The notes beneath the pieces were generated by a model. The model saw only the letters and a list, made by a program, of their open reading frames with translations, had not been told where the DNA came from and did no database searches. Of a stretch of 64,000 bases of DNA, positions 34,967-47,455 are shown one piece after another. The stretch is from Sphingomonas sp. URHD0057 (GTDB taxonomy: Bacteria > Pseudomonadota > Alphaproteobacteria > Sphingomonadales > Sphingomonadaceae), in contig NZ_KK211162.1 in assembly GCF_000620665.1 (NCBI RefSeq), positions 579,764 through 643,763 on the forward strand. Reading direction: 5' to 3'. Both the position numbers and the translations under genes were made by a program. The number at the start of each line of letters is the position of its first letter. The stretch's first letter is position 1.

Positions 34967-35674
34967 GTGTTTGCTGCTCTCTCCCGTCCCCGCTCTGCAC
35001 TGGCTGCAGCGTGCCTCGTCTTGGCATCGATCGTGGGAGCTTGTTCCGATACCGCTGGCGGTCCGATCCCGTACGACCGCGCGCTCGCGGCTCCGGACGA
35101 GCCGCGGATCCAGGCGCTCGGTGAAGGCTATAGGATCGCGCCGATGGACCAGCTGACGATCAAGGTCTTCAACTCGAAGGACCTGAGCGACGATTATGAC
35201 GTCGATCTGGCCGGACATATCTCCTTGCCCCTGATCGGCGAAGTCGCCGCGGCGAACCTGACCACGGCTCAACTCGACGCCGCGCTGACGGACAAGCTCG
35301 GCGAGAAATATTTCGAGCATCCCGACGTGAGCGTCGGCGTCAAGAAATCGGTCGGGCGCCTGGTTACGGTCGACGGGGCGGTCAAGGAAGCAGGATCTTT
35401 CCCAGCGCTCGGCACCCTTTCGCTGATGCAGGCGGTCGCGCTGGCCAAGGGCACGAGCGAGGATGCCAATCCGCACCGCGTCGCGGTATTCCGGACCATC
35501 GGCGGCACCCGGCAGGCCGCGGCATTCGATCTCGTCGCCATCCGCCGCGGCCAGTCGCCGGACCCGGCCGTTTATGCCGGTGACATCATTGTGGTCGACG
35601 GATCGTCGGTCAAAGCCCTTCAAAAGAAGCTATTCCAGAGCATTCCGCTGCTCGCGATCTTCGGGCCGATCTGA
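34967..35674 (+). CDS. Polysaccharide export lipoprotein (Wza/GumB-like)
   Basis: This 235-residue protein starts at GTG 34967, after AAGGAACGG. The signal peptide ends in a lipobox-like IVGAC, so an outer-membrane-associated lipoprotein is likely. It contains the polysaccharide export domain (GYRIAPMDQLTIKVFNSKDL, GHISLPLIGEV) and one SLBB domain (RLVTVDGAVKEAGSFPALG). It is shorter than Escherichia coli Wza, similar to GumB-type proteins. It forms the outer-membrane exit for the polymer with the copolymerase encoded next. Confidence 0.92.
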   Translation: MFAALSRPRSALAAACLVLASIVGACSDTAGGPIPYDRALAAPDEPRIQALGEGYRIAPMDQLTIKVFNSKDLSDDYDVDLAGHISLPLIGEVAAANLTTAQLDAALTDKLGEKYFEHPDVSVGVKKSVGRLVTVDGAVKEAGSFPALGTLSLMQAVALAKGTSEDANPHRVAVFRTIGGTRQAAAFDLVAIRRGQSPDPAVYAGDIIVVDGSSVKALQKKLFQSIPLLAIFGPI

Positions 35675-35711
35675 TGAGCATCGCGAGGCAAGCGCAGCAA
35701 GGCGAACTGCG

Positions 35712-37931
35712 GTGAACACCAATATAGCCGTACCGAACGAAGGGCCGTGGGCGCTCGGCGCATACGACCCAGACGCTGCAACCCGGCTGGGCCCCGGCCA
35801 AAGGTCCTATTCGGCGTCCCAATTGCTCGACTTCGCAACCGTCGTGCGGATCATCTACCATTGGCGCTGGCTGGTTCTCAGTGCGATCGCGGTCGGCATC
35901 GTGTTGGCGACCCTCGTGACGTTGCTCACGACGCCCATCTATCGCGCCTCGGTGACGCTCGAAGCAAACCCGCCGACCGTGGCGGTCAGTGAGGAACAGA
36001 CGAAGGAGCGGGAGGCCTCGACCGTCAATCCTTATGACTTCGTCGCGACTCAGGTGGGATTGCTATCAAGCAAAAGCGTCTCGCAGCGAACTGCTCAGGA
36101 TCTGAATCTCGCCAACAATCCCGATGTGGTGTCGCAATCGATGGAAGCCTCGCAGCGTCTTCGCGCCGCGACTGCGGCGGTTCAGGGAGGCCTGAAGGTG
36201 ACGGCGCCCGAAGACGGCCAACTGATCAAGTTCAGCTATGACTCGCCATCGCCGCAACTGGCGGCGCTCGTCGCTAACGGGATTGCGGACAGCTTCATCA
36301 ACACGGCGCTCCAGCGGCGCTATGAGGCGTCTGCCTACGCGCGCAACTTCCTCGAGCGGCAGATCTCCAAGACTCGGAGCGATCTGGAGCGCTCCGAACG
36401 CGCTTTGACGGCCTACGCCCAGGCGCAGGGGATCATAACCACATCCGTCGGCCCCGACGGCAAGCCGGCGGGCGGCGATGCCGGCTCGCTGCAGGGCGAA
36501 TCCCTGATCACTCTCAACAAGGCGCTGGCCGATGCGACGGCGCGCCGGGTGGCTGCCGAGGGTCTCTATCGACAGTCCCTGGCGGTGGGCCCCACCAGCG
36601 ATGTGACGACGAGCACGATCCAGCTTCGACAGCAGCTCGCGACGCTTCAGGCGGAGTATCAACAGAAGCGGACGTTCATGAAGCCCGAGCATCCGGAAAT
36701 GCAAAGCCTCAAGGCGCAGATCGACGAGCTCGGCAAGCAGATCGCGGGCACCAGCGCCCAAATCTCGTCGGGTCGAAACAACTCGCTATTGGCTGAATAT
36801 CGTGGGGCCTTGTCGGGCGAGAGCGCGCTGCAGGCCCGCGTCAACCAGCTCAAGGGTGCCGTGCTGGACCTTCGCGGACGAAGCATTCAGTACAACATCC
36901 TGCAGCGGGAGGTGGACACCAACCGCAGCCTGTACGACGCGTTGCTGCAGCGGTTTAAGGAAATCGGTGTGGCTGGCGGCGTCGGTATGGCCCCGGTGTC
37001 GATCGTCGATCGCGCCGACGCGCCGACCTTTCCGTTCCGCCCCAACCTGTTCATGAACTTGCTCCTTGGGCTTGGGTTTGGACTCCTCGCGGGCGTTGGC
37101 GGCGCGGTCGGCCTCGAATTCCTCAATGACACGATCAAGACGCGCGAGGACGTTCGCAAGAAGCTGGCGCTACCATGCCTCGGCGCGGTGCCCAGGACCG
37201 CGGCCAAGGACGTCTTCATCGAAGACCTCAAGAATCCGACATCCATCGTCTCGGAGGCCTATTCGGCGATCGTTGCGGCACTGCGATTCAGCACGGAATC
37301 GGGCATGCCGAAGGTGTTGGTCGTGACCAGCACGCGGTCGGGTGAAGGGAAGTCATCGACGGCGCTGGCGCTCGCCCAGAATTTCGCGCGACGCGACAAA
37401 TCGGTGCTGCTGATCGACTCCGACTTGCGCAAACCGGCGTTCAAAGCGGCCGACGACAATGTCGGTTTGAGCAAACTCCTAACGACCGATGATCCGGTCA
37501 CCAGCCATGTCGTCGAGACTCAGCATCCGGGCTTATGGCTGTTGCCGAGCGGCCCGGTTCCGCCGAACCCCGCCGATCTTCTATCGACCGGGCGAATCCG
37601 CAAGATCGTCGCGGAAGCCTCGGAGCGCTTCGACATCGTGATCATCGACGGCCCGCCGACGATCGGCCTTGCCGACGCGCCGCTGCTTGCCGCCGCGGCC
37701 GGCAACTTGTTGTTCGTCGTCGAAAGCGGAAAGACGCGCACCCGCGCGGCGATCGAGGCGCTCAACCGGCTCGAGGCGACGGGAACCCATGTGCTCGGCG
37801 CGACCCTCACCAAGTCGAGCGCGCGGGGTGGGACTTACGGCTATGGCTCCTATGGCTACGGCTATGGATACGGACGGGTCGGCGGCAAGCGGACCGAAAT
37901 CCTGATGATCCCGCAGGGGAGTGACAGCTGA
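35712..37931 (+). CDS. Wzc-like polysaccharide copolymerase / BY-kinase
   Basis: The protein has 739 residues from GTG 35712. It has an N-terminal Wzz domain with TM near residue 55, then a long coiled-coil periplasmic region (about 190-430), a GNVR segment and a second TM around 450-470. The cytoplasmic BY-kinase has Walker A STRSGEGKSST (about 541-551), A' LLIDSDLRKP and B IIDGPP. The C-terminus carries a Tyr-rich cluster alternating with Gly (about 710-722), the autophosphorylation tail. It controls polymer length and export. Confidence 0.94.
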   Translation: MNTNIAVPNEGPWALGAYDPDAATRLGPGQRSYSASQLLDFATVVRIIYHWRWLVLSAIAVGIVLATLVTLLTTPIYRASVTLEANPPTVAVSEEQTKEREASTVNPYDFVATQVGLLSSKSVSQRTAQDLNLANNPDVVSQSMEASQRLRAATAAVQGGLKVTAPEDGQLIKFSYDSPSPQLAALVANGIADSFINTALQRRYEASAYARNFLERQISKTRSDLERSERALTAYAQAQGIITTSVGPDGKPAGGDAGSLQGESLITLNKALADATARRVAAEGLYRQSLAVGPTSDVTTSTIQLRQQLATLQAEYQQKRTFMKPEHPEMQSLKAQIDELGKQIAGTSAQISSGRNNSLLAEYRGALSGESALQARVNQLKGAVLDLRGRSIQYNILQREVDTNRSLYDALLQRFKEIGVAGGVGMAPVSIVDRADAPTFPFRPNLFMNLLLGLGFGLLAGVGGAVGLEFLNDTIKTREDVRKKLALPCLGAVPRTAAKDVFIEDLKNPTSIVSEAYSAIVAALRFSTESGMPKVLVVTSTRSGEGKSSTALALAQNFARRDKSVLLIDSDLRKPAFKAADDNVGLSKLLTTDDPVTSHVVETQHPGLWLLPSGPVPPNPADLLSTGRIRKIVAEASERFDIVIIDGPPTIGLADAPLLAAAAGNLLFVVESGKTRTRAAIEALNRLEATGTHVLGATLTKSSARGGTYGYGSYGYGYGYGRVGGKRTEILMIPQGSDS

Positions 37932-39135
37932 CCTCAGCGTGGGGGCAAAGCCATTGAGCTGGGCGCGGCGAGGGATCGCGCTCGTGGCCGCTTTGTTGCT
38001 GGCCGGACAAGTGGTTCGCAATGCCGCGGTCCATGCCTTCGTCGAATCCGATCCCGCGAAGGCGGCGCGCGCCTGGCCGAGCCATCCGGAGGCTGTTGTT
38101 GCGCTCGGAATGAGCGCGATTGGGGCCGCGGCGCATCGTGGACAAAGCGTGGGGCCGGAGGTTCTGCGGCGAATCTATTCCGCCGCGGCCGGGGCGCCGC
38201 TCGCGGCGCAGCCGTATCTGGTTCGCGGCGTCCAGGCTCAACTTGCTGGCGACAGCTCAGCCGCGGAACGCGCATTCCAGGCGGCCGAGTGGCGCGACCC
38301 GCGGTCGCTGCCGGCCCGCTATTTTCTTGCCGAATATTATCTGCGCGCGGGCGACATCCGGCGCGGGCTGACCGAATTCGCGGCCCTCGCGCGGCTTGCG
38401 CCGAACGGGGTCGTCAGCGTCACGCCCTATCTTGCGTCCTATGCGCGGGATCCGTCGCGGTGGCCGCAGATCCGGGCGCTATTCCGGACGGATCCGGAGC
38501 TGCAGAACTCGACGCTGCAGCTGCTCGCCGGTGATGTTGACAATAGCTCGGCGATTCTCGCGCTCGCCGATCCGGCGCACCGGAACGCGCAAAGCCCTTG
38601 GCTGCCGAAGCTCTTGAGCACGCTCGTCAGCGACGGGCAGTTTGCGAAGGCGCGGGCGATCTGGGCCGACGTCGCCGGGGTGCGGACCGGTTCGGCTGAC
38701 TTGTTGTTCGATGCCGGGTTCGCCGCCGCGGCGCCGCCGCCGCCGTTCAACTGGTCGCTGACCTCCTCGACGGTCGGGCTCGCCGAGCGCCAGTCGGGCG
38801 GGCGCCTTCACGTCATCTATTATGGCCAGGAGGACGGCGCGCTCGCGAGCCAGCTGCTGATCCTGCCGCCCGGCCGCTACCGGCTGGCGATGCGCATCGC
38901 GGGGGGCGGCTCCCAGGCGGCATCGTTGCGCTGGTCCCTGGTTTGCGCTTCGGCGCAAGGGCCGCTCGCATCCGCTCGCCTCGACACGCTCGTCGCCCGG
39001 CCGCTGATCTTTGAGGTTCCGGCGGGCTGCGCGGCTCAGAAGCTGGAGCTGTCGGGATCGTCCTCCGACATTCCGCGCCAGGTCGAGGTTACTATCAGCG
39101 ACCTGACTCTGGTGAAGGCTGGCGCCAATGGCTAG
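37921..39135 (+). CDS. TPR-like envelope protein of the exopolysaccharide operon
   Basis: The 404-residue protein starts at GTG 37921 overlapping the kinase stop by 11 bases. One N-terminal hydrophobic segment (RGIALVAALLLAGQVV) anchors or exports it. Residues about 40-270 contain tetratricopeptide-like helices (AEYYLRAGDIRRGLTEFAAL). The last about 130 residues are beta-rich (GRYRLAMRIAGGG, EVTISDLTLVKAG), like a carbohydrate-binding or jelly-roll module. Its role is not established; TPR proteins often scaffold polymer export. Confidence 0.75.
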   Translation: MTADLSVGAKPLSWARRGIALVAALLLAGQVVRNAAVHAFVESDPAKAARAWPSHPEAVVALGMSAIGAAAHRGQSVGPEVLRRIYSAAAGAPLAAQPYLVRGVQAQLAGDSSAAERAFQAAEWRDPRSLPARYFLAEYYLRAGDIRRGLTEFAALARLAPNGVVSVTPYLASYARDPSRWPQIRALFRTDPELQNSTLQLLAGDVDNSSAILALADPAHRNAQSPWLPKLLSTLVSDGQFAKARAIWADVAGVRTGSADLLFDAGFAAAAPPPPFNWSLTSSTVGLAERQSGGRLHVIYYGQEDGALASQLLILPPGRYRLAMRIAGGGSQAASLRWSLVCASAQGPLASARLDTLVARPLIFEVPAGCAAQKLELSGSSSDIPRQVEVTISDLTLVKAGANG

Positions 39136-40492
39136 CCGTGCTCGCGAAGCCGTTGCCCCGGTCTATCTTTTCCTGTGCCTGATCGCCGGGGGAAGCGCCC
39201 AGGGCATCTGGGCCAACATGGTGCTGCAACTGATCGGGATCGCGCTCATCGCCTGGGCGGCGACGGCGCGGGACGCGCCGGCGCTCGCGCCGCCCGCGCG
39301 CTGGTTGTTCGGCATTATCCTTGCCGGGCTGGCGCTGGTCGCGCTCCAGCTCATCCCGCTTCCCGCCTCGGTGTGGCCGTCCCTCGGCGGCCGAGCCGCG
39401 CTCGCGAGGGACTATGCGCTGCTCGGCACGCCCATTCCGGCGTTGCCGGTCTCGCTGGCTCCCTACGATACGCTGAGCGCGCTGATGGCGCTTTTGCCTG
39501 CGCTTGGGATGCTCTGCGCGATCGTCCGGCTGCAGGCCTACCGCGCATCATGGCTGGTGGCGGCGCTCATCGCCGCCACCTTCTGCGGGATCCTCCTCGG
39601 AACGCTCCAGGTTTCGAGCGGGGACCCGGAGCGCTCGTCCTGGTATCTTTTCGACGAGGCCAATTTCGGGGTGGCGACCGGCTTCTTCGCCAACGCCAAC
39701 CACATGGCGACATTGCTGGTCGTCAGCCTTCCCTTCCTGACAGCGCTGGTTGCGGCCGGCCGGCGGCTGGGCGGACAGCGCTATTCCGCGCTCCTCGCCG
39801 TCTGCGCCGGGGCGGCTTTGGTCGTCGTCGTCGGGATCATTCTGAATCAGTCGATGGCTGGTTACCTACTTGCGTTGCCGGTGCTCGCGGCGAGCGCTGC
39901 GATCCTGATGCCATCCGCCAGCAAGCTTCGAGGCGTGGCGATCCTGCTGTCGATCGTGGGTCTCGCCGCGGCATTCGGAGCGCTGGAGCTCAGCTCGATC
40001 CGCGGCCAGGCGTTCAATGCCCAGGCGGCCACTTCGGTCACGTCGCGCGAGGAAATCCTCAAGACGACGGTCGCAGCGACGCGAAATTTCCTGCCGTTCG
40101 GATCGGGCATCGGTACGTTTCGCCGTGTTTACGACCTGTACGAGGATCATGACCGGGTGACGCGAACCTATGTCGTCCATGGCCACAACGACTATGCCGA
40201 GCTGGCTCTCGAGACCGGGTTGCCCGGAATCGCCATCCTCGTCGCATTCCTGCTGTGGTGGGGCGCGGCGGTGCGGCGCGCGTGGCGATTGGCGGATGCC
40301 AGCCCCTATGTCCGCGCGGCATCAATCGCGTCGGCGGCGATCCTCGTTCACAGCCTGGTCGATTTTCCCCTCCGAACCGCGGCGATCAGCGCGGCATTCG
40401 CCATGTGCCTCGCTTTGCTCGCCGACCGGCGCGCACCGTTGGCCTCAGTGAAATCGGACCTGCGGCCGACGCGCCACATCGTCCTCAAGTGA
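39128..40492 (+). CDS. O-antigen ligase / polymerase (Wzy-like) family membrane protein
   Basis: The 454-residue polytopic protein has about eleven predicted helices. The conserved Wzy_C region is ATGFFANANHMATLLVVSLP, then a large periplasmic loop and VVHGHNDYAELALETGLPG, whose HNDYLE-like motif marks bacterial O-antigen ligase/polymerase proteins. It joins repeat units or transfers the polymer. ATG 39128 overlaps the upstream gene by eight bases. Confidence 0.9.
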   Translation: MASRAREAVAPVYLFLCLIAGGSAQGIWANMVLQLIGIALIAWAATARDAPALAPPARWLFGIILAGLALVALQLIPLPASVWPSLGGRAALARDYALLGTPIPALPVSLAPYDTLSALMALLPALGMLCAIVRLQAYRASWLVAALIAATFCGILLGTLQVSSGDPERSSWYLFDEANFGVATGFFANANHMATLLVVSLPFLTALVAAGRRLGGQRYSALLAVCAGAALVVVVGIILNQSMAGYLLALPVLAASAAILMPSASKLRGVAILLSIVGLAAAFGALELSSIRGQAFNAQAATSVTSREEILKTTVAATRNFLPFGSGIGTFRRVYDLYEDHDRVTRTYVVHGHNDYAELALETGLPGIAILVAFLLWWGAAVRRAWRLADASPYVRAASIASAAILVHSLVDFPLRTAAISAAFAMCLALLADRRAPLASVKSDLRPTRHIVLK

Positions 40493-40863
40493 GCCGCGCC
40501 GGACCCGTCTGGACCACGGTCACTGGCGCGATGGGCTTCTGGCATCAGGGGAAGCTGTTCGTCGAGCATGCCATCGCGATCCAGCATGACGCCTTGCACA
40601 TCATCTTCGGGGTCATTGTTTGGGTTGTGATCGCGGCGGTAATGCGCCGTCCTCTTTCCTCGCGCTGGCCGTGGCTGTGGCTGCTTGCGGTGATCGCCTG
40701 GAACGAGACGGTCGATCTGTGGACCGAGAAATGGCCCGACCCCGGCCAGCAATATGGCGAGGGCGCGAAGGACCTGCTGCTGACCATGCTTCTGCCGACG
40801 ATATTGGCTGTACTGGTCCGTGTCGCGCCCGGCCTCTTCGGCGCGGCCAGGAGGCGGCGTTAG
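40489..40863 (+). CDS. Small membrane protein of unknown function
   Basis: The 124-residue protein starts at GTG 40489, overlapping the upstream TGA (GTGA); ATG 40531 is an alternative start. It has about three hydrophobic helices (DALHIIFGVIVWVVIAAVM, WLWLLAVIAWNETVDLW, LLTMLLPTILAVLVRVAPG). An acidic/aromatic segment (WTEKWPDPGQQYGEGAKD) links two of them. It is the last gene of the polysaccharide operon; its 3' end overlaps the convergent peptide operon by four bases. No function can be assigned. Confidence 0.75.
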   Translation: MSRAGPVWTTVTGAMGFWHQGKLFVEHAIAIQHDALHIIFGVIVWVVIAAVMRRPLSSRWPWLWLLAVIAWNETVDLWTEKWPDPGQQYGEGAKDLLLTMLLPTILAVLVRVAPGLFGAARRRR

Positions 40864-41948
40864 GAGAGACCCGTACGTGCCTGCCGGACCAGCTCCGAAG
40901 TCTTGAAAGCCCAGCCCGGCAACAATCCGAACTGAGTCAGGTGGATCGGCAGCGTGCCGAGCGGAGTGAACGTCGGTTCGACCGGTTCGGCCCGCCCGAC
41001 CAGTTGCTTCATGGCCCTGCCGACAAGCCATCGGTTGACGCGATCCCTGAGCAGTTCTTCGCGCAGCGCGGGAAGCGCCTCCAGGCTGCCGAACAGCGCG
41101 TCGGCCAGCAGCAACGCCTGAGCCGGAGCGCGTCCCGCGCCGAGCTCCTGCGCTCGGCGATAGAGAGGTACGACCTTCTCAGCGCCGCATGAATGGAGCA
41201 AGGCGGCGAAGTCGGCGATCCACTTGAGGCGGAACCACAGGCTCGAAGCCCCGTGCACGCAAAGATATGCGAAGAGCGGGTCGCGCGCGAGCGTCGGGAG
41301 ATGAAGTCCGGGCGACACCTCGACGACCTGGCTGGGCGAGTGGACGTCGACTTGGGGGACCAGCCTTCGATTGTCTGCAAGGCGCGAATGCAGATCGATG
41401 TGCAGCCCGGCTTCCGCGTTCTCCCACACCGATTCCTTGTTGAGCTTGTGCCAGTCGACCAACGTGGCGTCATTGGACGGGACGACGGGCTGATAGCCAC
41501 AGCTGCGCAAGATCTCTCCCGCCCCTGCCACAGCGCCTTCCTCGACCAGGATGTCGACGTCGGTGGCAGATTTTAGCCCTATGTTCCCGTAGACCAGCGT
41601 GCTGAGCGTCAGCCCTTTGACGAACAGCAGCGCCACGCGTGCATTCGCGAAGGCTTCGAGCAATGCCCTCGAGCCCATTGCCGCCCTGAGGTTCGCGACC
41701 GCGATCGCTCGGGCATCAATGGCGAAGGCTTCGGCAATTGGAGCAGGCACCGGATCACGGCCTGATTGTAGCGAGCTCCAAACGAGGCCTTGCACGCGGT
41801 GGAACCGGGCCAACCGCAGAAACAGTTCCCAATCCAGGTTTCCCGGAACTTCCGAAGATAGTTCTGTCGTATCCGCTGCAAACGATCGTTGGCACGCTTC
41901 GACGACGACGCGGAATTCCTGAGAAGGATTGCATTCGCCATAGCTCAC
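40860..41948 (-). CDS. Nucleotidyltransferase-family protein of the RiPP operon (N)
   Basis: The 362-residue protein starts at GTG 41948. It has the nucleotidyltransferase-5 pattern: FVKGLTLSTLVYG followed by the DxD metal motif D130-V-D132 in KSATDVDILVEEG. The C-terminal half is helical. In phosphorylated lasso-peptide clusters of the paeninodin/pseudomycoidin type, a homologous N protein acts after the kinase; PsmN adds hexoses to the phosphorylated C-terminal Ser. Here it is the last gene, 44 bases after the cyclase. The decoration chemistry for this cluster is inference. Confidence 0.85.
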   Translation of the reverse strand: MSYGECNPSQEFRVVVEACQRSFAADTTELSSEVPGNLDWELFLRLARFHRVQGLVWSSLQSGRDPVPAPIAEAFAIDARAIAVANLRAAMGSRALLEAFANARVALLFVKGLTLSTLVYGNIGLKSATDVDILVEEGAVAGAGEILRSCGYQPVVPSNDATLVDWHKLNKESVWENAEAGLHIDLHSRLADNRRLVPQVDVHSPSQVVEVSPGLHLPTLARDPLFAYLCVHGASSLWFRLKWIADFAALLHSCGAEKVVPLYRRAQELGAGRAPAQALLLADALFGSLEALPALREELLRDRVNRWLVGRAMKQLVGRAEPVEPTFTPLGTLPIHLTQFGLLPGWAFKTSELVRQARTGLS

Positions 41949-41992
41949 AATGCGGGGAGCCTAGCCGACGGCAGCGGCCGACACGAGCGGCG

Positions 41993-43918
41993 TCAGGGCG
42001 CGTTGCGCCCTTCGACGTACTGCACGAACCGGGCTGTCAACAGCGCCGCCGGCACCGCCAGCTGTGGGGCAAATGCCTTTTGCGGATCCGTCTCGGTTTG
42101 CTCGGGCCAATCCTCGAGCGCGGCGCGCAGTCGTGGAATGTCGAACATCTTCCCGAACCGCTCGTCGTTCTCGAGCCGATCGAACTCTTCCAGGAAGTCC
42201 TGGCGGCGGCGACCGATGCGAAGGTGCCAGTCGGCGTCCCACCAGCCAAACAGTGGGTTGGTGCGCTGAGCTTCGGGCATGATGTCCTTCGCCATCTGCT
42301 TAGCGAGCCAACGGATTTCACCGTCGCGCATGAACATCCTGGTCGGGAGACCGAGGCAAAATTCCACGAAGGGGCGGTAAGCGGTCGGATCGCGCAGCGC
42401 GATTCCGTACATCTGCTCGAAGCCTTGGTAAACTTCCGCCGTCCAGGCGTCGTTTTGAGCGAGGAATTGGCGCGAATGGCGGCGGCTGCGGGGCTGGTAA
42501 CGGTCGACGATCAAGCCCGACTGGCGCAGCCGCCGTTCCGCGCCCGAGGATTTGCGATATGCCTTGGATAAGGTTTGCATCAACTCAATTCCGAGCTTCT
42601 TTCGGCCGAGCGAAATTCTCCTGAGCGGCCGCCACAGCGCATGCGGCAGCAGGGCGGAGAGGCTCCGCGCCGTGATGCGCCGCAGAATATGCCCCTCGTG
42701 AATCGACGGCCGGGTAAGCGCGAGCCACCACTGACGCCATTGGCCCTTCAACAGATATTCGACGTAGCCGCACTCACCCTTGTCGCTGAAGGTCAGGTTC
42801 CCCCATTCGGCGAGAAGGACGACGTCGCATCCGGCCTTTTGCGCTTCGCTCAGGATGCCGTGATAGACGTACATGGTCGCCATCGGGGCCGGAGCGCCGC
42901 CGATCAGGTGGAACAGTTCCTGCCAGCGATGACTGGGGTCGATTCCGTCATTCGCGGTGAAATGCGGGTCCAACTCGGGGTGCATCGCCGCCAGGGATTT
43001 CACGAACGGCCGTTCATCGCCCATCATCCAGCGCGGGACGCGACGGTCGAAGCCCGGCTCTGGGTGAAAGGTGAAAGTTGGAAGCCTCTGGCCGGGAGGC
43101 AGCGCCTTGGCCGCCCGGACAGCCACCTGCGGCGAATCGAGGCCGCCGGACACGGTTGATCCCGGATTGCCAAAGCCGGCCAAGCAGGCGCGGACGCCTT
43201 CATCGAGCAATTCGCCCGCACGCACGATCGCGTCTTCGTCGGCGATATTATTGTGAAAGGGCAGGTCGACGAGGTTGTAATATTTGCGCAAGCGCCGCGC
43301 GTGCCCGCGTTCGAGCTCGACCACCGACCCAACCGGGACTTGAGCGATGTCTCGATACCAGCTCGCCTCCTCGTCGGTGAAATTATACATCGCGCTGTCG
43401 GCAACATGAGCTTCGTTGAGCTTCTGCTCGACGCCCGCCGCGAACAGCGCTCGGGGAACGGACGCCGCGGCCGTCAGCTCGTCCGAATGAAAATAATAGA
43501 GGGGAGGGGCCCTTAGCGGGCTGCGCGCCAGACGCAGCCGAGATCGCCCAGGATCGGCGATAATCGTGCAATAGTCCCCGACGATCCTGAGGTCGGCTTC
43601 ATTGCCCCAGCGATCGACTGCAAGGCCATAGAGCGTCGCCATGTCGTGCCCAAGAACACTGAGTTCATGCGCAATCGCCGCGGCATTGTCGAAATATCCG
43701 TGGAACAGGACGAGCTGGCCATTCGCTAACTGCGCCGGCCGCCACGCGCGAGCCTGGGCGGCGGCACCTCGCAACGGACGGTAGGCAAGTTGCAAGGCTC
43801 CGCTGTCGGCACTGCCGGCGTGACCGCCGATTCCGGCGCACAGCGATGATGCAAGTCGGCTGGAAGGCTTTGGATTAGGAGTGCGCGCGCTGTCCCACGG
43901 CCAAGCGAGCGCGAGCAT
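41993..43918 (-). CDS. Asparagine-synthetase-like peptide cyclase (lasso C homologue)
   Basis: This 641-residue protein has an N-terminal amidotransferase-like half and a C-terminal synthetase half with the ATP pyrophosphatase motif SGGLDS (257-262). The catalytic Cys2 needed for glutamine hydrolysis is missing (protein begins MLALAWPW), as in lasso cyclases, which activate a side-chain carboxylate as AMP ester rather than use ammonia. It sits directly after the precursor gene and a hairpin. The precursor core has no Asp or Glu, so which carboxylate it would activate is open. Confidence 0.88.
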   Translation of the reverse strand: MLALAWPWDSARTPNPKPSSRLASSLCAGIGGHAGSADSGALQLAYRPLRGAAAQARAWRPAQLANGQLVLFHGYFDNAAAIAHELSVLGHDMATLYGLAVDRWGNEADLRIVGDYCTIIADPGRSRLRLARSPLRAPPLYYFHSDELTAAASVPRALFAAGVEQKLNEAHVADSAMYNFTDEEASWYRDIAQVPVGSVVELERGHARRLRKYYNLVDLPFHNNIADEDAIVRAGELLDEGVRACLAGFGNPGSTVSGGLDSPQVAVRAAKALPPGQRLPTFTFHPEPGFDRRVPRWMMGDERPFVKSLAAMHPELDPHFTANDGIDPSHRWQELFHLIGGAPAPMATMYVYHGILSEAQKAGCDVVLLAEWGNLTFSDKGECGYVEYLLKGQWRQWWLALTRPSIHEGHILRRITARSLSALLPHALWRPLRRISLGRKKLGIELMQTLSKAYRKSSGAERRLRQSGLIVDRYQPRSRRHSRQFLAQNDAWTAEVYQGFEQMYGIALRDPTAYRPFVEFCLGLPTRMFMRDGEIRWLAKQMAKDIMPEAQRTNPLFGWWDADWHLRIGRRRQDFLEEFDRLENDERFGKMFDIPRLRAALEDWPEQTETDPQKAFAPQLAVPAALLTARFVQYVEGRNAP

Positions 43919-43953
43919 TTAAGGTCAGGCAACTGATAGGGACGGCCAAAGCA

Positions 43954-43968
43954 GAGCGGTTACCGCTC
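43954..43968 (-). promoter_or_regulatory. Intergenic hairpin between precursor and cyclase genes
   Basis: GAGCGGT (43954-43960) and ACCGCTC (43962-43968) are perfect inverted arms around one base; in RNA this is a 6-bp stem with a 3-base loop. No U-run follows on the - strand, so it is probably an RNA stability or partial attenuation element that lets precursor message outnumber cyclase message. This is inference from position. Confidence 0.5.
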
Positions 43969-43985
43969 GGCAAACAGGCGCGTCC

Positions 43986-44102
43986 TCAGGATTTGCCGCC
44001 CTGACCTCCGGTATTGTTCGGGCCGGCGACATTCTTGAGCTTGCCCAGGCGTACGACCTGCGGCTTCACCCACGTTCCGGATTTTGTCTCAGTTTTCGGC
44101 AC
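43986..44102 (-). CDS. RiPP precursor peptide (lasso-like, 38 residues, no Asp/Glu in core)
   Basis: GTG 44102 has GGGAG six bases upstream, and the upstream frame would run into the B2 gene, so this start is preferred over 44246. Leader residues 1-25 contain W11-x-x-P14 and V16/L19-G20, the aromatic-xx-Pro pattern read by B1 proteins in lasso leaders. Pro-to-core spacing as in paeninodin (12 residues) places the core at A26: AGPNNTGGQGGKS. Core positions 7-9 are Gly, Gly, Gln; no acidic residue exists. The C-terminal residue is Ser, the site phosphorylated by paeninodin-type kinases. The cleavage site is inferred. Confidence 0.72.
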   Translation of the reverse strand: MPKTETKSGTWVKPQVVRLGKLKNVAGPNNTGGQGGKS

Positions 44103-44187
44103 AACCGGCTCCCACGCTAAACGGACCGAGCAAAGTTCGCGGCCGCTGACGGCATTAATCAAGTCACGACTCAGATTCAACCAAGGC

Positions 44188-44628
44188 CTAACGCCGGTCG
44201 ACGCCGCTTGTTTCCTCGCTCGTTTGGCCGAGGCGCACCAGCTCAATCCACGGGCCTGGAAGATCTCCGATCAAACGCGTTCCATCGATCTCGACCCAGG
44301 CGTGCAGCGCATCGGAGCCTTCGCGCAGCGCTGGCGGGCGAACGGCGATCACCAGCGCGTGGCCGATCGCCGCTTTGCGCAGGGTCCAGCTGAGCACCAT
44401 AGCCCGAGGCAGGCATCGAATCGCGAAGGGCAGTCGGGTCGCGGCGCGCTCGACCTGTCCGGCGAGACGCCAGGCATCTTCGGGCAGACGAGCTGGTTCG
44501 CCCGTCCTACCGAGCATTCCGCGCCACTTTGCGAACGGAACCCAGTGGACAAGGACCCACGCCCAACAAAGCAAAGCCATCGCGCGCACCGTTCCGAGCC
44601 GGCCGCGCCATGTCTCAGGCTTCGCCAA
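44188..44628 (-). CDS. Lasso-type leader peptidase B2 (transglutaminase-like)
   Basis: The protein has 146 residues from TTG 44628. The catalytic Cys72 lies in FAIRCLPRAM and His109 in DALHAWVEIDG, with nearby Asp115 or Asp122, matching the Cys-His-Asp transglutaminase-fold proteases that remove lasso leaders. An N-terminal hydrophobic stretch (AMALLCWAWVLVHWVPF) may place it at the membrane. It overlaps the B1 gene by 14 bases, consistent with B1 and B2 acting as one split B protein. The precursor gene starts 85 bases after its stop. Confidence 0.88.
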   Translation of the reverse strand: MAKPETWRGRLGTVRAMALLCWAWVLVHWVPFAKWRGMLGRTGEPARLPEDAWRLAGQVERAATRLPFAIRCLPRAMVLSWTLRKAAIGHALVIAVRPPALREGSDALHAWVEIDGTRLIGDLPGPWIELVRLGQTSEETSGVDRR

Positions 44629-44881
44629 TCAGCCCTAGCTCTAAAAGGTCGGTCAGGAACTCATCGACATCAGCCCTGATTTCCGTCTCCGCGACGCCAT
44701 GCTTGCGAGCGATCGCCGCGACAAGTGAGGCGCGATCCCGCTGTCCGTCGATCAACAACCAGATGCTGGCCGCCGTCTGCGGCAACGAGAAGACCTCGCC
44801 ATTATGGTTGTCCACGAGGAAGACTTCTTCGCCCTTATCCGCTTCAGTGAAGCGTTCGAAGCGCTTGGTGACCGCAATCAT
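44615..44881 (-). CDS. PqqD-like leader-recognition protein B1
   Basis: This 88-residue PqqD-fold protein has FTEADKGEEVFLVDNHNGEV, FSLPQTAASIWLLIDG and a three-helix tail (IRADVDEFLTDLLELGLI). Such RiPP recognition elements bind the leader and hand the precursor to the protease. ATG 44881 overlaps the stop of the kinase gene (ATGA), and its 3' end overlaps B2. The recognised motif is expected to be W11-x-x-P14 of the peptide encoded at 43986-44102. Confidence 0.9.
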   Translation of the reverse strand: MIAVTKRFERFTEADKGEEVFLVDNHNGEVFSLPQTAASIWLLIDGQRDRASLVAAIARKHGVAETEIRADVDEFLTDLLELGLIGEA

Positions 44882-45705
44882 TCGCTTCCCCTAGCGCGGA
44901 GGTGGTCGGCCGCAAGTATTACGGTATCCCGAAACCGATCTCTGCCGCGTGGGCGGACGAAACAGCTCATTTCGATCTGGTCGGCGAGCCAGCACAAATG
45001 CCGGAACTTACCCGGGATATCGAATTGACGGGCCGCTTCGAACAACCTCGCTGTGTAATGGTCGTCCTGGAGTCGGATGACACGGTCGCCACCGCAAATG
45101 CTGTCGATGGCGGCTTGGGGACCGTCTTCGAGAAAGATCAGCTCCGCAAGCGGCAAGGGGATTTCGACACTTCCGGAGGCGGGCGTCGCGTAAAATTTGG
45201 CCACGGTCCGCGACACCTCTTCTTCGCGCACCGCATCGGTAAGCCTCAACGCCTCCTCCGACAGTTTCAGCCGCTTGTGGCCGGGCAGGCAAAGAATTCG
45301 GTCGGGGTCGGACAAGTCGAGGATGAGGGTGTCGTCGCAGAACATCGGAAAGCCCAGGCTGCCGAGCGCGGCAATCAGGGTCGATTTGCCGGAGCCTGCG
45401 GGGCCCGTGAACGCATAGACCCGATCATTGAAGGCCACCGCGGAGGCATGGATCGGTTGCAGACCGTTGATGCTGGCGATCGCCGCATAGACGCTGCCGT
45501 TCAGCCACAGCGATTCTTCGCTGAGGTCGACCCCTGGCCCGCGCTCGACGGTGACGCCCTCGCCACGGCGATAGTGGAAATAATGTTGGCCTTCGCCGCG
45601 AAGCAGGAACTCGTCATCGCGCAGCCGCCAGCAAGCTTCTTCGAGGGGATCGTCAAAGAGGGCGTGCGGAACAATCCCGTAGGCAACACGCGTTTCACGC
45701 GCCAT
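44878..45705 (-). CDS. HPr-kinase-like peptide kinase of the RiPP operon (K)
   Basis: The protein has 275 residues from ATG 45705; the frame extends to a TTG at 45786, next to the tRNA 3' end, which is unlikely. The HprK C-terminal fold is seen in PIHASAV (His86), the P-loop GPAGSGKST (101-109) and CDDTLILDL. It lacks the HPr-kinase sensor domain and no HPr gene is present, so its substrate is more likely a peptide. Homologues in paeninodin-type clusters phosphorylate the C-terminal Ser of the precursor; this precursor ends in Ser. It is the first gene of the operon. Confidence 0.87.
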   Translation of the reverse strand: MARETRVAYGIVPHALFDDPLEEACWRLRDDEFLLRGEGQHYFHYRRGEGVTVERGPGVDLSEESLWLNGSVYAAIASINGLQPIHASAVAFNDRVYAFTGPAGSGKSTLIAALGSLGFPMFCDDTLILDLSDPDRILCLPGHKRLKLSEEALRLTDAVREEEVSRTVAKFYATPASGSVEIPLPLAELIFLEDGPQAAIDSICGGDRVIRLQDDHYTARLFEAARQFDIPGKFRHLCWLADQIEMSCFVRPRGRDRFRDTVILAADHLRARGSE

Positions 45706-45795: not shown

Positions 45796-45871
45796 TGGTG
45801 AGCCCTGCTGGATTCGAACCAGCGACCTACTGATTAAAAGTCAGTTGCTCTACCGACTGAGCTAAGGGCCC
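45796..45871 (-). tRNA. tRNA-Lys (anticodon UUU)
   Basis: The - strand reads a complete cloverleaf: acceptor GGGCCCU pairing with AGGGCUC (one G-U), D-arm TAGCTCAGTCGGTAGAGCA, anticodon loop CTTTTAA giving UUU, T-arm GCTGGTTCGAATCCAGC, and an encoded CCA end. It lies 90 bases upstream of the RiPP kinase start on the same strand, so it may be co-transcribed or supply an insertion target; no attachment-site duplication is seen. Confidence 0.97.
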
Positions 45872-45959
45872 ACTTCGAGGGGCGGTTACCCGCGTGGGGG
45901 CGTGTCGGCAAGCGGGCCAATGGCTTGTGTCCAGGCCGCGGCTTGGGCAGCACTCGCGA

Positions 45960-46676
45960 ATGGATTTCGGCGCACAGCTTCGCTCGGCCATAAAAGCGGG
46001 CCGAAAGCGCCGGGCTGCATGGGTCCGACTGCTCGACACGACGCGGTTGTTTCGCACCGGGGAGGGGCGGGCGCGGCTGTGCACGCGGCTCGTGCATCGG
46101 CAACGGGTCCATCAAACCGCACCGGACACGTGGGAGGAGCGCTACCCGGAGCTGTTCGACCGCGCGGCTCAGCTGATGCCGAATGCCCGGCGCATCCTAT
46201 CGTTCGGCTGTTCGACCGGCGAGGAATTGATCTCGCTGAGGCGGCGGTTCGGCGCGGCGGAGATCATCGGCGCGGAAATCAACTCGCGATCACGACGAGT
46301 CGCGGTCCGCCGCTTGGCTTCGGACCTCCAGGCGAGCGTGGTCAAGCCGACCGCAGTCAGCGGAGAATTCGACGTCATCTTCGCGCTCGCCGTCCTCCAG
46401 CGTGGGCCGCATTGGGTGGACGAGGCCGGTGTCGACGATCTCTCGGCGCATTATCCTTTCGCGAAATTCGACCAAATGGTTCGCGAGCTGGTCGGCCACC
46501 TGCGCGCTGGCGGCCTGCTGTGCACCATGCATACGCACTACCTCGTCGAACAGAGCTCGGCGGCGCCCCAGCTCGAGTCACTCTCCGATTCACCGCCGAT
46601 GTGCGGACCGTTCTTCGGCCCTGACAATCGTCGACTGGCGACCCAGTCGGCACCCTCGATCTATCGCAAGCGCTAA
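45960..46676 (+). CDS. Class I SAM-dependent methyltransferase, copy 1
   Basis: The protein has 238 residues from ATG 45960, chosen because it matches the start of copy 2. The N-terminus is basic (AGRKRRAAWVRLL), followed by a SAM-binding Rossmann core: RRILSFGCSTGEELISL (motif I), IGAEINSRS (motif II) and FDVIFALAVLQRG (motif III/IV). It is clearly related to the next gene over its full length. Small-molecule or protein target is unknown. It is divergent from the RiPP operon across the tRNA. Confidence 0.82.
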   Translation: MDFGAQLRSAIKAGRKRRAAWVRLLDTTRLFRTGEGRARLCTRLVHRQRVHQTAPDTWEERYPELFDRAAQLMPNARRILSFGCSTGEELISLRRRFGAAEIIGAEINSRSRRVAVRRLASDLQASVVKPTAVSGEFDVIFALAVLQRGPHWVDEAGVDDLSAHYPFAKFDQMVRELVGHLRAGGLLCTMHTHYLVEQSSAAPQLESLSDSPPMCGPFFGPDNRRLATQSAPSIYRKR

Positions 46677-46732
46677 CGGCCGAGGCGGTAGGCGAGGTTG
46701 CTCGGACTGCCGGGTTCATGCAGCTTGGCACG

Positions 46733-47455
46733 ATGAACCTCCGGGCGCGGCTTTCGCCGATTATCAAGGCTGCCCGCCTGCGCCGTGCGCTGTGGGTGCG
46801 CGCGATCGATGCGGCTGGGCTCCTGCGCATGGCCGAGGGTCGCGCCCGCCTGTGGACTCGGCTGGTGTATCGCCGTGAACTCCACCAAACCGCCCCGTAC
46901 ACGTGGCTCAACCGCTACCCCGCACTCTTCGACCTTGCCGCCGAGCTGGAGCCGGACGCGCGGCGGATCCTATCCTTCGGTTGTTCGACCGGTGAAGAGC
47001 TTGTGTCGCTCCGGGGCCGTTTCGCTCATGCCGAGATCGTCGGCGCCGAGATCAACCCCCGATCGCGCGCAATCGCGCAACATCGGGTCGCCGCGGACGC
47101 TCAGACAAGGGTGATTCCACCGGAGTCGATCACAGGCTCGTTCGACCTCGTCTTTGCTCTCTCGGTGCTTCAGAGGGACCCTCGCGGCTTGAAAAACGAG
47201 ATGGAAGCGAAGCATCTTGCGGCGCGTTACCCGTTCGCGCGCTTCGACGCCGGCGTTCGCGGTCTCGTGGCCTGCCTCCGTCCGGGGGGGTTCCTGATCG
47301 TCGCCAATACCCTGTATCGCGTGGAGGACAGCTCCGTTGCGGTCGAGCTCGAGCCGATTGTCGGATCGCCAGGGATGAACCGGGTCCAGTTGACGCCGCG
47401 GGGGCGTCGACTAGCAGCAGCCGCTGCTGCGAGGACGGTGTTCCGGAGAATCTAG
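46733..47455 (+). CDS. Class I SAM-dependent methyltransferase, copy 2
   Basis: The protein has 240 residues from ATG 46733 (ATG 46718 adds five residues). It has the same organisation as copy 1: a basic helix, HQTAPYTWLNRYPALFDLA, SAM motif RRILSFGCSTGEELVSL, GAEINPRSR and FDLVFALSVLQRD. The two genes are 56 bases apart and look like a tandem duplication that has diverged. Substrate unknown. Its 3' end overlaps the convergent folK by four bases. Confidence 0.82.
   Translation: MNLRARLSPIIKAARLRRALWVRAIDAAGLLRMAEGRARLWTRLVYRRELHQTAPYTWLNRYPALFDLAAELEPDARRILSFGCSTGEELVSLRGRFAHAEIVGAEINPRSRAIAQHRVAADAQTRVIPPESITGSFDLVFALSVLQRDPRGLKNEMEAKHLAARYPFARFDAGVRGLVACLRPGGFLIVANTLYRVEDSSVAVELEPIVGSPGMNRVQLTPRGRRLAAAAAARTVFRRI

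Follow-up and report, generated by a model that had tools for sequence, protein, structure and literature searches.

A lasso-type peptide operon of Sphingomonas with a conserved glutamine at the predicted ring position

Genes of the operon and conservation of the precursor

Within a 64,000-nucleotide stretch of the Sphingomonas sp. URHD0057 genome (contig NZ_KK211162.1; hereafter the window), six minus-strand genes appear to specify a ribosomally synthesized and post-translationally modified peptide (RiPP) of the lasso type. By rule the ring of a lasso peptide closes on Asp or Glu (PMC8498205, PMC10368454), and the short precursor peptide A encoded by this operon carries Gln at the predicted ring position. 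From upstream to downstream the genes are:

44878..45705, minus strand: K, HPr-kinase-like putative peptide kinase, 275 residues, ATG at 45705
44615..44881, minus strand: B1, PqqD-like putative leader-binding protein, 88 residues, with a 4-base overlap with the end of K
44188..44628, minus strand: B2, putative leader peptidase of the transglutaminase fold, 146 residues, TTG start
43986..44102, minus strand: A, predicted precursor peptide, 38 residues, GTG start, E-value 7.1e-11 against the family profile
41993..43918, minus strand: C, asparagine-synthetase-like putative cyclase, 641 residues, with the motif SGGLDS at residues 257-262
40860..41948, minus strand: N, nucleotidyltransferase-family protein, 362 residues, PF14907

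The initial annotation had described these genes as a complete K-B1-B2-A-C-N RiPP operon, and the open reading frames (ORFs) together with family scans support both the gene calls and that description, with K matching weakly and its His, P-loop Gly and Lys, and Asp-Asp residues being conserved. B1 exceeds the PF05402 cut-off (62.2 versus 23.4 bits), and B2 that of the NF033537 lasso_biosyn_B2 model (48.6 versus 33 bits) as well as that of PF13471, its Cys and His aligning with the Cys and His of McjB. C is above the cut-offs of PF00733 (61.7 versus 21 bits) and PF13537 (30.6 versus 25 bits) and scores 117.8 bits against the lasso cyclase model NF033535, far under the cut-off of 525. Thus, by family scans the gene set of a lasso system is present (a PqqD-like B1, a transglutaminase-like peptidase B2 and an asparagine synthetase (AS)-like C), with C under the NF033535 cut-off. 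N scores 146.4 bits against PF14907 (cut-off 31.2), and likewise immediately follows C in the related loci L001 and L033. The curated cut-offs of the HprK-related kinase A system (TIGR04352/TIGR04353) are not reached, K matching TIGR04352 weakly at 33.2 bits against a cut-off of 200 and B1 scoring 26.9 against 35 bits. The window K shares 61-62% identity with the K proteins of L001 and L033, and across 15 aligned K proteins His86, the P-loop Gly and Lys, and Asp124-Asp125 are invariant, while the P-loop Ser is replaced by Thr in one of them, that of L058.

A C-based search of 298 genomes of the window's taxonomic family yielded 60 neighbourhoods, which with the window and L001 make 62 loci. 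These were scanned in six frames with the pattern [WY]-x-x-P-x-[LMV]-x-x-[LIVAM]-G-x-x-x-[DN]-[VI], allowing at most 40 residues to the stop. It matched 37 times, and 36 of the matches lie on the same strand as, and just upstream of, C; the 37th (L050) failed this test because the stop-to-stop frame of C starts early, and by inspection it too stands just upstream of C. In the 883,400 bp of the 60 related loci the motif occurs 35 times, as against zero in each of 10 first-order Markov resamplings. A chance ORF was rejected as an account of A on the strength of the location next to C and of the zero resampling matches. Searched with the profile of A, 43 of 397 genomes of the window's taxonomic family gave a match, and among 385 genomes sampled from the class the sole match was the window's own genome. 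In these two samples the matches are thus confined to that family, the class sample containing few genomes of it and diverged precursors being able to escape the profile.

A protein search added 65 sequences, those with names being called "hypothetical protein", from genera that include Sphingomonas, Altererythrobacter, Croceicoccus, Pontixanthobacter and Novosphingobium. Loci, proteins and ten further loci gave a pool of 111 peptides, of which 98 are non-redundant; L066, found later with a relaxed motif and having Gln at the ring column, is outside this count. By motif scan, a precursor of the present type is absent from L040, L065 and, except for L078, the loci beyond L070; L068 and L071 have a related leader followed by cores with Asp, and L044 is truncated by a contig end. 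The tandem genes at L069:5302-5430 and L069:5505-5633 each encode a precursor with the ring-column Gln and precede a single C. A true precursor elsewhere in the window genome, perhaps with Asp or Glu at core residues 7-9, was rejected since the profile of A matches one place only in that genome. The proposal that the small ORF between B2 and C is a conserved precursor holds, with 98 non-redundant homologues, of which 71 have no acid around the ring position; judged by this conservation, the 38-residue ORF is a genuine precursor.

Glutamine at the ring column and the cyclase

The predicted parts of the precursor are:

44025..44102, minus strand: leader of A, spanning residues 1-26 given a core start at Gly27, with W11-x-x-P14-x-V16-x-x-L19-G20...N24-V25-A26
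43989..44024, minus strand: predicted core GPNNTGGQGGKS, Gly1 to Ser12, with no Asp or Glu and a C-terminal Ser
44001..44003, minus strand: codon of Gln8 (Gln34 of the precursor), the proposed ring-closing residue

Across 37 aligned precursors the leader columns W, P and G are invariant and the positions of L16 and D24 are at least 90% conserved. The Y-x-x-P-x-L type of motif associated with B1 is matched as W-x-x-P-x-L/V, with Trp replacing Tyr. With the residue that follows D-V/I taken as core position 1, 91 of the 98 non-redundant precursors have Ala there and 77 have Gly at position 2. At the ring column, position 9, 81 precursors carry Gln, 3 Glu, 2 Asp and 2 Asn; in the remaining 10, position 10 is occupied by Gln, Asn or Asp, and thus all 98 carry one of these four residues at position 9 or 10. 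Entropy at position 9 is 1.20 bits, compared with 2.66-3.23 bits at positions 3-8 and 10-14, and when the set is thinned to cores less than 60% alike Gln is still found there in 36 of 48. Neither Asp nor Glu occurs in the window core (AGPNNTGGQGGKS); 67 of the 98 cores contain no acid anywhere and 71 none at positions 8-10. The early description of a core lacking a ring-forming acid is thus borne out, but not the corollary that it is an impossible one for a lasso: the ring position is not empty and holds a strongly conserved Gln (sometimes Glu, Asp or Asn) that had been overlooked. On these alignments, the swap of acid for Gln at the ring position is a trait of the whole precursor family. In several members a Cys directly follows the ring-column Gln and a second Cys lies in the tail, as in NQCGPSPCTNKS (L039:8161-8292, P0005, P0013, P0021, P0025 and P0039); the pair could form a disulfide.

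The C-terminal residue is Ser in 93 of 98 precursors, including that of the window, and Thr in 5, which fits the requirement of an HPr-type peptide kinase. If the core starts at Gly1, Thr is never found at -2, where 85 precursors have Val and 13 Ile, and the window leader ends in KNVA; if it instead began directly after the Val/Ile, residue -2 would be Asp, Asn or Gln. We prefer a start at the second residue, since this puts Gln at residue 8 and lets the Asp group (L047, L056, L062, P0059 and P0062) close at residue 9, both being normal ring sizes.

The AlphaFold2 model of C matches TsnB9, beta-lactam synthetase and AS-B across its whole length, and the modelled protein is accordingly a full AS-type fold that retains the SGGLDS ATP motif. 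TsnB9 was the only match in a sequence search of the PDB with C at an E-value of 0.01, and no named lasso cyclase is among the fold matches listed for C, which is not proof of absence. A role of C as an active glutaminase was considered and rejected as the N-terminal Cys was not seen, the window C beginning MLALA, in a check in which 10 of 45 C rows gave no start in the scanned stretch.

In a tree of 51 C proteins, built with a quick method and with SH-aLRT as its only support, one clade (support 100) unites 39 rows, of which 33 are paired with Gln, 3 with Asn, 2 with Glu and 1 with Asp precursors; L041 was entered as Asn, its Gln standing one residue later. The Asp-type C proteins of L047, L056 and L062 cluster with that of L040, where no precursor was found. 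Within the Gln clade an acid arises three separate times (Glu in L034, Glu in L051 and Asp in L132), and four changes between amide and acid are required on the tree in all. That Gln alternates with Glu, Asp and Asn at this very column is expected if the side-chain carbonyl is used, and interchange of Gln and Glu in particular would be explained by the lactam from either being the identical molecule. Position 560 of the window C, in the column of McjC S440, was considered as a determinant of the amide or acid preference: 30 of 35 amide-type rows have His there, all 7 Asp-clade and outgroup rows have Gln, the nested acid rows have H, H and P, and the window and its two nearest relatives have Trp. 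It was not counted, as the pattern follows ancestry. McjC K337 has been reported near Glu8 (PMC11420955), and its column falls in an unreliable stretch of the C alignment.

Proposed ring closure and its alternatives

The locus probably makes a short lasso-type (lariat) RiPP in which Gln8 is linked to Gly1, a reading to which we give a probability of roughly 0.58. For K, B1, B2 and N we infer roles by analogy with characterized systems (PMC9266682, PMC8498205, PMC10368454). B1 would bind the leader through W-x-x-P-x-V/L, B2 would cut it off to leave a core starting with Gly1 and with Val at -2, K would phosphorylate the C-terminal Ser, and N may attach a sugar to the Ser phosphate. C would link the amine of Gly1 with the Gln8 side chain, Gln8 being the ring residue to which position and substitution pattern point. 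As for the ring chemistry, we propose two routes: C might use ATP to activate the carboxamide, so that the ring would be a macrolactam if ammonia is lost (-17.03 Da) and a macrolactamidine if water is lost (-18.01 Da); alternatively, Gln8 might be deamidated to Glu and cyclized in the ordinary manner. In a more speculative version of the former, which we regard as somewhat improbable, C would adenylate the Gln8 amide to an AMP-imidate that Gly1 captures as a macrolactamidine, and the phospho- or glyco-Ser would serve as the plug of the short tail. For core GPNNTGGQGGKS the calculated [M+H]+ values are 1073.497 for the linear peptide, 1056.471 for the macrolactam and 1055.486 for the macrolactamidine, to which a phosphate would add 79.966 and a hexose 162.053; a core beginning one residue earlier would give 1144.534, 1127.508 and 1126.524. 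The original suggestion of a different cyclization chemistry, or of a different use of lasso enzymes, remains a live reading.

A macrolactamidine is borne by bottromycin, and other PP-loop enzymes, such as argininosuccinate synthetase, GMP synthetase and TilS, activate amide-like oxygens. PesC is an AS-like RiPP enzyme described in a preprint, according to which ATP is needed for both amidation and an amide-to-nitrile step, with an AMP-imidate proposed (PMC13060819); this reported use of ATP to activate an amide is a precedent that supports carboxamide activation by C. The PesC substrate is a C-terminal carboxylate or amide and the activated species eliminates to a nitrile, whereas in the present case the activated amide could meet an internal amine that captures it; C is not claimed to belong to the PesC group.

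Several observations weigh against a ring between Gly1 and Gln8. Lasso cyclases adenylate carboxylates, and the production of microcin J25 reportedly requires Glu8 (PMC8498205), so a standard lasso cyclase is not expected to take Gln. No residue was found in the C alignment that tracks amide versus acid independently of ancestry. The window core has 12 residues, with 4 after the ring and no bulky plug, and 42 of the 84 Q/E-type tails are without any F, W, Y, I, L, M, H or R; such a short, plugless tail makes threading doubtful, and an unthreaded lariat is possible. We infer the start of the core, at Gly1 or at the preceding Ala, from sequence. Finally, in 14 of 98 precursors an Asp stands immediately before the ring column, and these could be ordinary.

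Deamidation of Gln8 to Glu by B2, C or a housekeeping deamidase, after which C would act as a normal lasso cyclase, is a special case of the Gly1-Gln8 link, and this and the macrolactamidine version are both within the probability given for it. That Glu is found in 3 and Asp in 2 of 98 precursors at the ring column would suit it, as would B2, a transglutaminase-fold thiol enzyme that retains its Cys and His, but no deamidase gene was found in the operon, no Cys of an active glutaminase comes after any of the listed C starts, and the prevalence of Gln would need some other reason if a cheap Glu codon sufficed; we therefore see it as a minority option. A little less favoured is the view that Gln8 stays uncyclized and serves recognition, or the activity of a linear or otherwise cyclized peptide, with C performing another ATP-dependent step, for instance on the C-terminal carboxylate. 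AS-like enzymes do amidate or nitrilate C-termini in other RiPPs (PMC13060819), the top PDB match of C in both fold and sequence is the hydroxyamidotransferase TsnB9, and the tails are short and plugless. Yet the residues that replace Gln at the ring column are specifically Glu, Asp or Asn, which suggests that the side-chain carbonyl is used, and B1, B2 and the leader are lasso-like, which makes this view doubtful.

We consider it most improbable that the leader ends at P-x-L and an ordinary ring is closed by the conserved Asp of "D-V-A". That Asp is kept in 93 of 98 precursors and would be core residue 8, but it is Asn in the window and three others and Gln in one, which leaves the window again without an acid; moreover, known lasso leaders have P-x-L at -14 to -12 (PMC10368454), and the Gln column would be left unexplained. 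Scarcely better placed is the notion that members with an Asp beside the ring column (the 14 already mentioned, and 10 with Asp immediately after it) are ordinary lassos and the others, including the window, decayed or non-functional relics, for the 71 of 98 precursors without an acid at the three columns still conserve the leader, the Gln, the C-terminal Ser/Thr and the ATP motif of C.

The operon resembles those of phosphorylated or glycosylated lasso peptides, namely paeninodin (with PadeK), pseudomycoidin (with PsmK and PsmN) and the SyanA/SyanK system of Sphingobium yanoikuyae (PMC9266682, PMC8498205), in having the same K, B1, B2, C and N set and a C-terminal Ser as phosphorylation site; unlike that group, it has Gln rather than Asp/Glu in the ring and Val rather than Thr at -2, and its pathway is dispersed in many relatives. 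SyanA is set beside this family by its published description. Ile/Val(-2) precursors are known from BsfA of Bradymonas and have also been reported from Acidobacteriaceae and Sphingomonadales; BsfA shares with this family the residue at -2, Gly1 and a kinase in the cluster, but closes at Asp8 and has phospho-Ser3 in contrast to the Gln8 and C-terminal Ser seen here (PMC10368454). Gln is not mentioned in the main text of that study (Duan et al. 2023), whose list of Sphingomonadales, in Figure S14, may include family members. Metanodin likewise has a novel ring residue, but there the novelty is an Asn at the first place of the ring, with Asp retained as the acceptor, whereas here the acceptor itself is an amide (PMC12670498). 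No report of a Gln-closed lasso was found in our literature search, whose reach excluded most subscription papers and all supplements.

A dispersed pathway and its bearing on the lasso rule

The initial annotation regarded the gene order and the place of the precursor as unusual, but neither is out of the ordinary in this family: operons that include K and B2 usually run K-B1-B2-A-C. It also noted the lack of an isopeptidase and a TonB receptor, at which no search was aimed here, and of an ABC exporter. The last is so for the window, since the one exporter family concerned was not found beside its operon (nor in L001), and its best match elsewhere in the genome is a generic ABC protein with 42% identity over 222 residues; most relatives, however, do have one, the family being present in 25 of 34 A-bearing loci among L033-L078, including the genus-mate L033, where it lies just upstream of K.

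In many relatives B1-A-C are kept together, often with the ABC exporter, and K or B2 are missing from the locus. B2 is found in all 44 C-bearing genomes, three of which (G228, G290 and G227) have C with no A found, as against 6 of 20 genomes without A that were hand-picked from listings; these 20 are absent from the A-profile matches, though the listing does not show that each was searched. Among 15 remote B2 regions in other genomes, 9 have a B2 unaccompanied by K, B1, C or N (L135, L137, L138, L140, L141, L142, L144, L145 and L147), and in the other 6 it adjoins such genes (L136, L139, L143, L146, L148 and L149). A K homologue is encoded elsewhere in 24 of 24 genomes without an operon K (E-values 5.2e-28 to 9.2e-38), whereas in 20 genomes whose operon includes K a further K homologue never reaches 1e-20, and the closest approach is 7.9e-19, in G172. 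The remote K and B2 genes may act on A, a reading against which it counts that a K homologue at 2.2e-28 or better is also present in 5 of the 20 A-less genomes, so that a remote K is not unique to A-bearing genomes; in these five it shares its contig with a B2 5-12 kb away, in another K/B2 cluster. G221, G178 and G258 each combine a Gln-type pair beside K-B1-B2 with a lone Asp-type A-C pair and have a single B2.

The window genome itself has a second B2-like gene (contig C6, 183528-183818; L134) scoring 56.4 bits against NF033537, with no K, B1, C or N recognized within about 9 kb. Other clusters combine K, B1, C, N, B2 and ABC genes in varied orders (L072, L073, L074, L076, L077, L139, L143, L146, L148 and L149), the last five adjoining remote B2 genes. 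The C proteins of L072-L077 are 24-30% identical to that of the window, and some of these clusters have a sulfotransferase-like gene (family F38). A precursor of the present type was not recognized in the scanned clusters L072, L073, L139, L146 and L149. Around L042, L037, L049 and other B1-A-C loci the neighbours look by eye like housekeeping genes, with ribulose-phosphate epimerase-like and purH-like frames, as if these loci occupied a fixed chromosomal site.

Upstream of the window operon, and outside it, are a tRNA gene and two similar tandem genes for methyltransferase-domain proteins (PF13489, PF08242), while polysaccharide genes converge on the operon from the other side:

45796..45871, minus strand: tRNA-Lys (ARAGORN)
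45894-46676 and 46718-47455, plus strand: the methyltransferase-domain genes, adjoining tRNA-Lys
35463-40492, plus strand: genes for a Wzz/GNVR tyrosine-kinase-like protein, a 404-residue protein without a family and a Wzy_C O-antigen-ligase-like protein

The Asp/Glu ring rule is thus broken by a whole precursor family, which searches that require an acid would miss since its ring acid is replaced by Gln. If the Gln is truly cyclized, lasso-type enzymes either can activate an amide or work in concert with a hidden deamidation step, and the ring may close by a chemistry new to lasso peptides; were the macrolactamidine version true, a single cyclase scaffold would handle both amide and acid ring residues in this lineage. 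Lactam and amidine are separable by one accurate mass, and the natural Gln, Glu, Asp and Asn variants, together with the three genomes that have both Gln- and Asp-type A-C pairs, provide ready comparisons.

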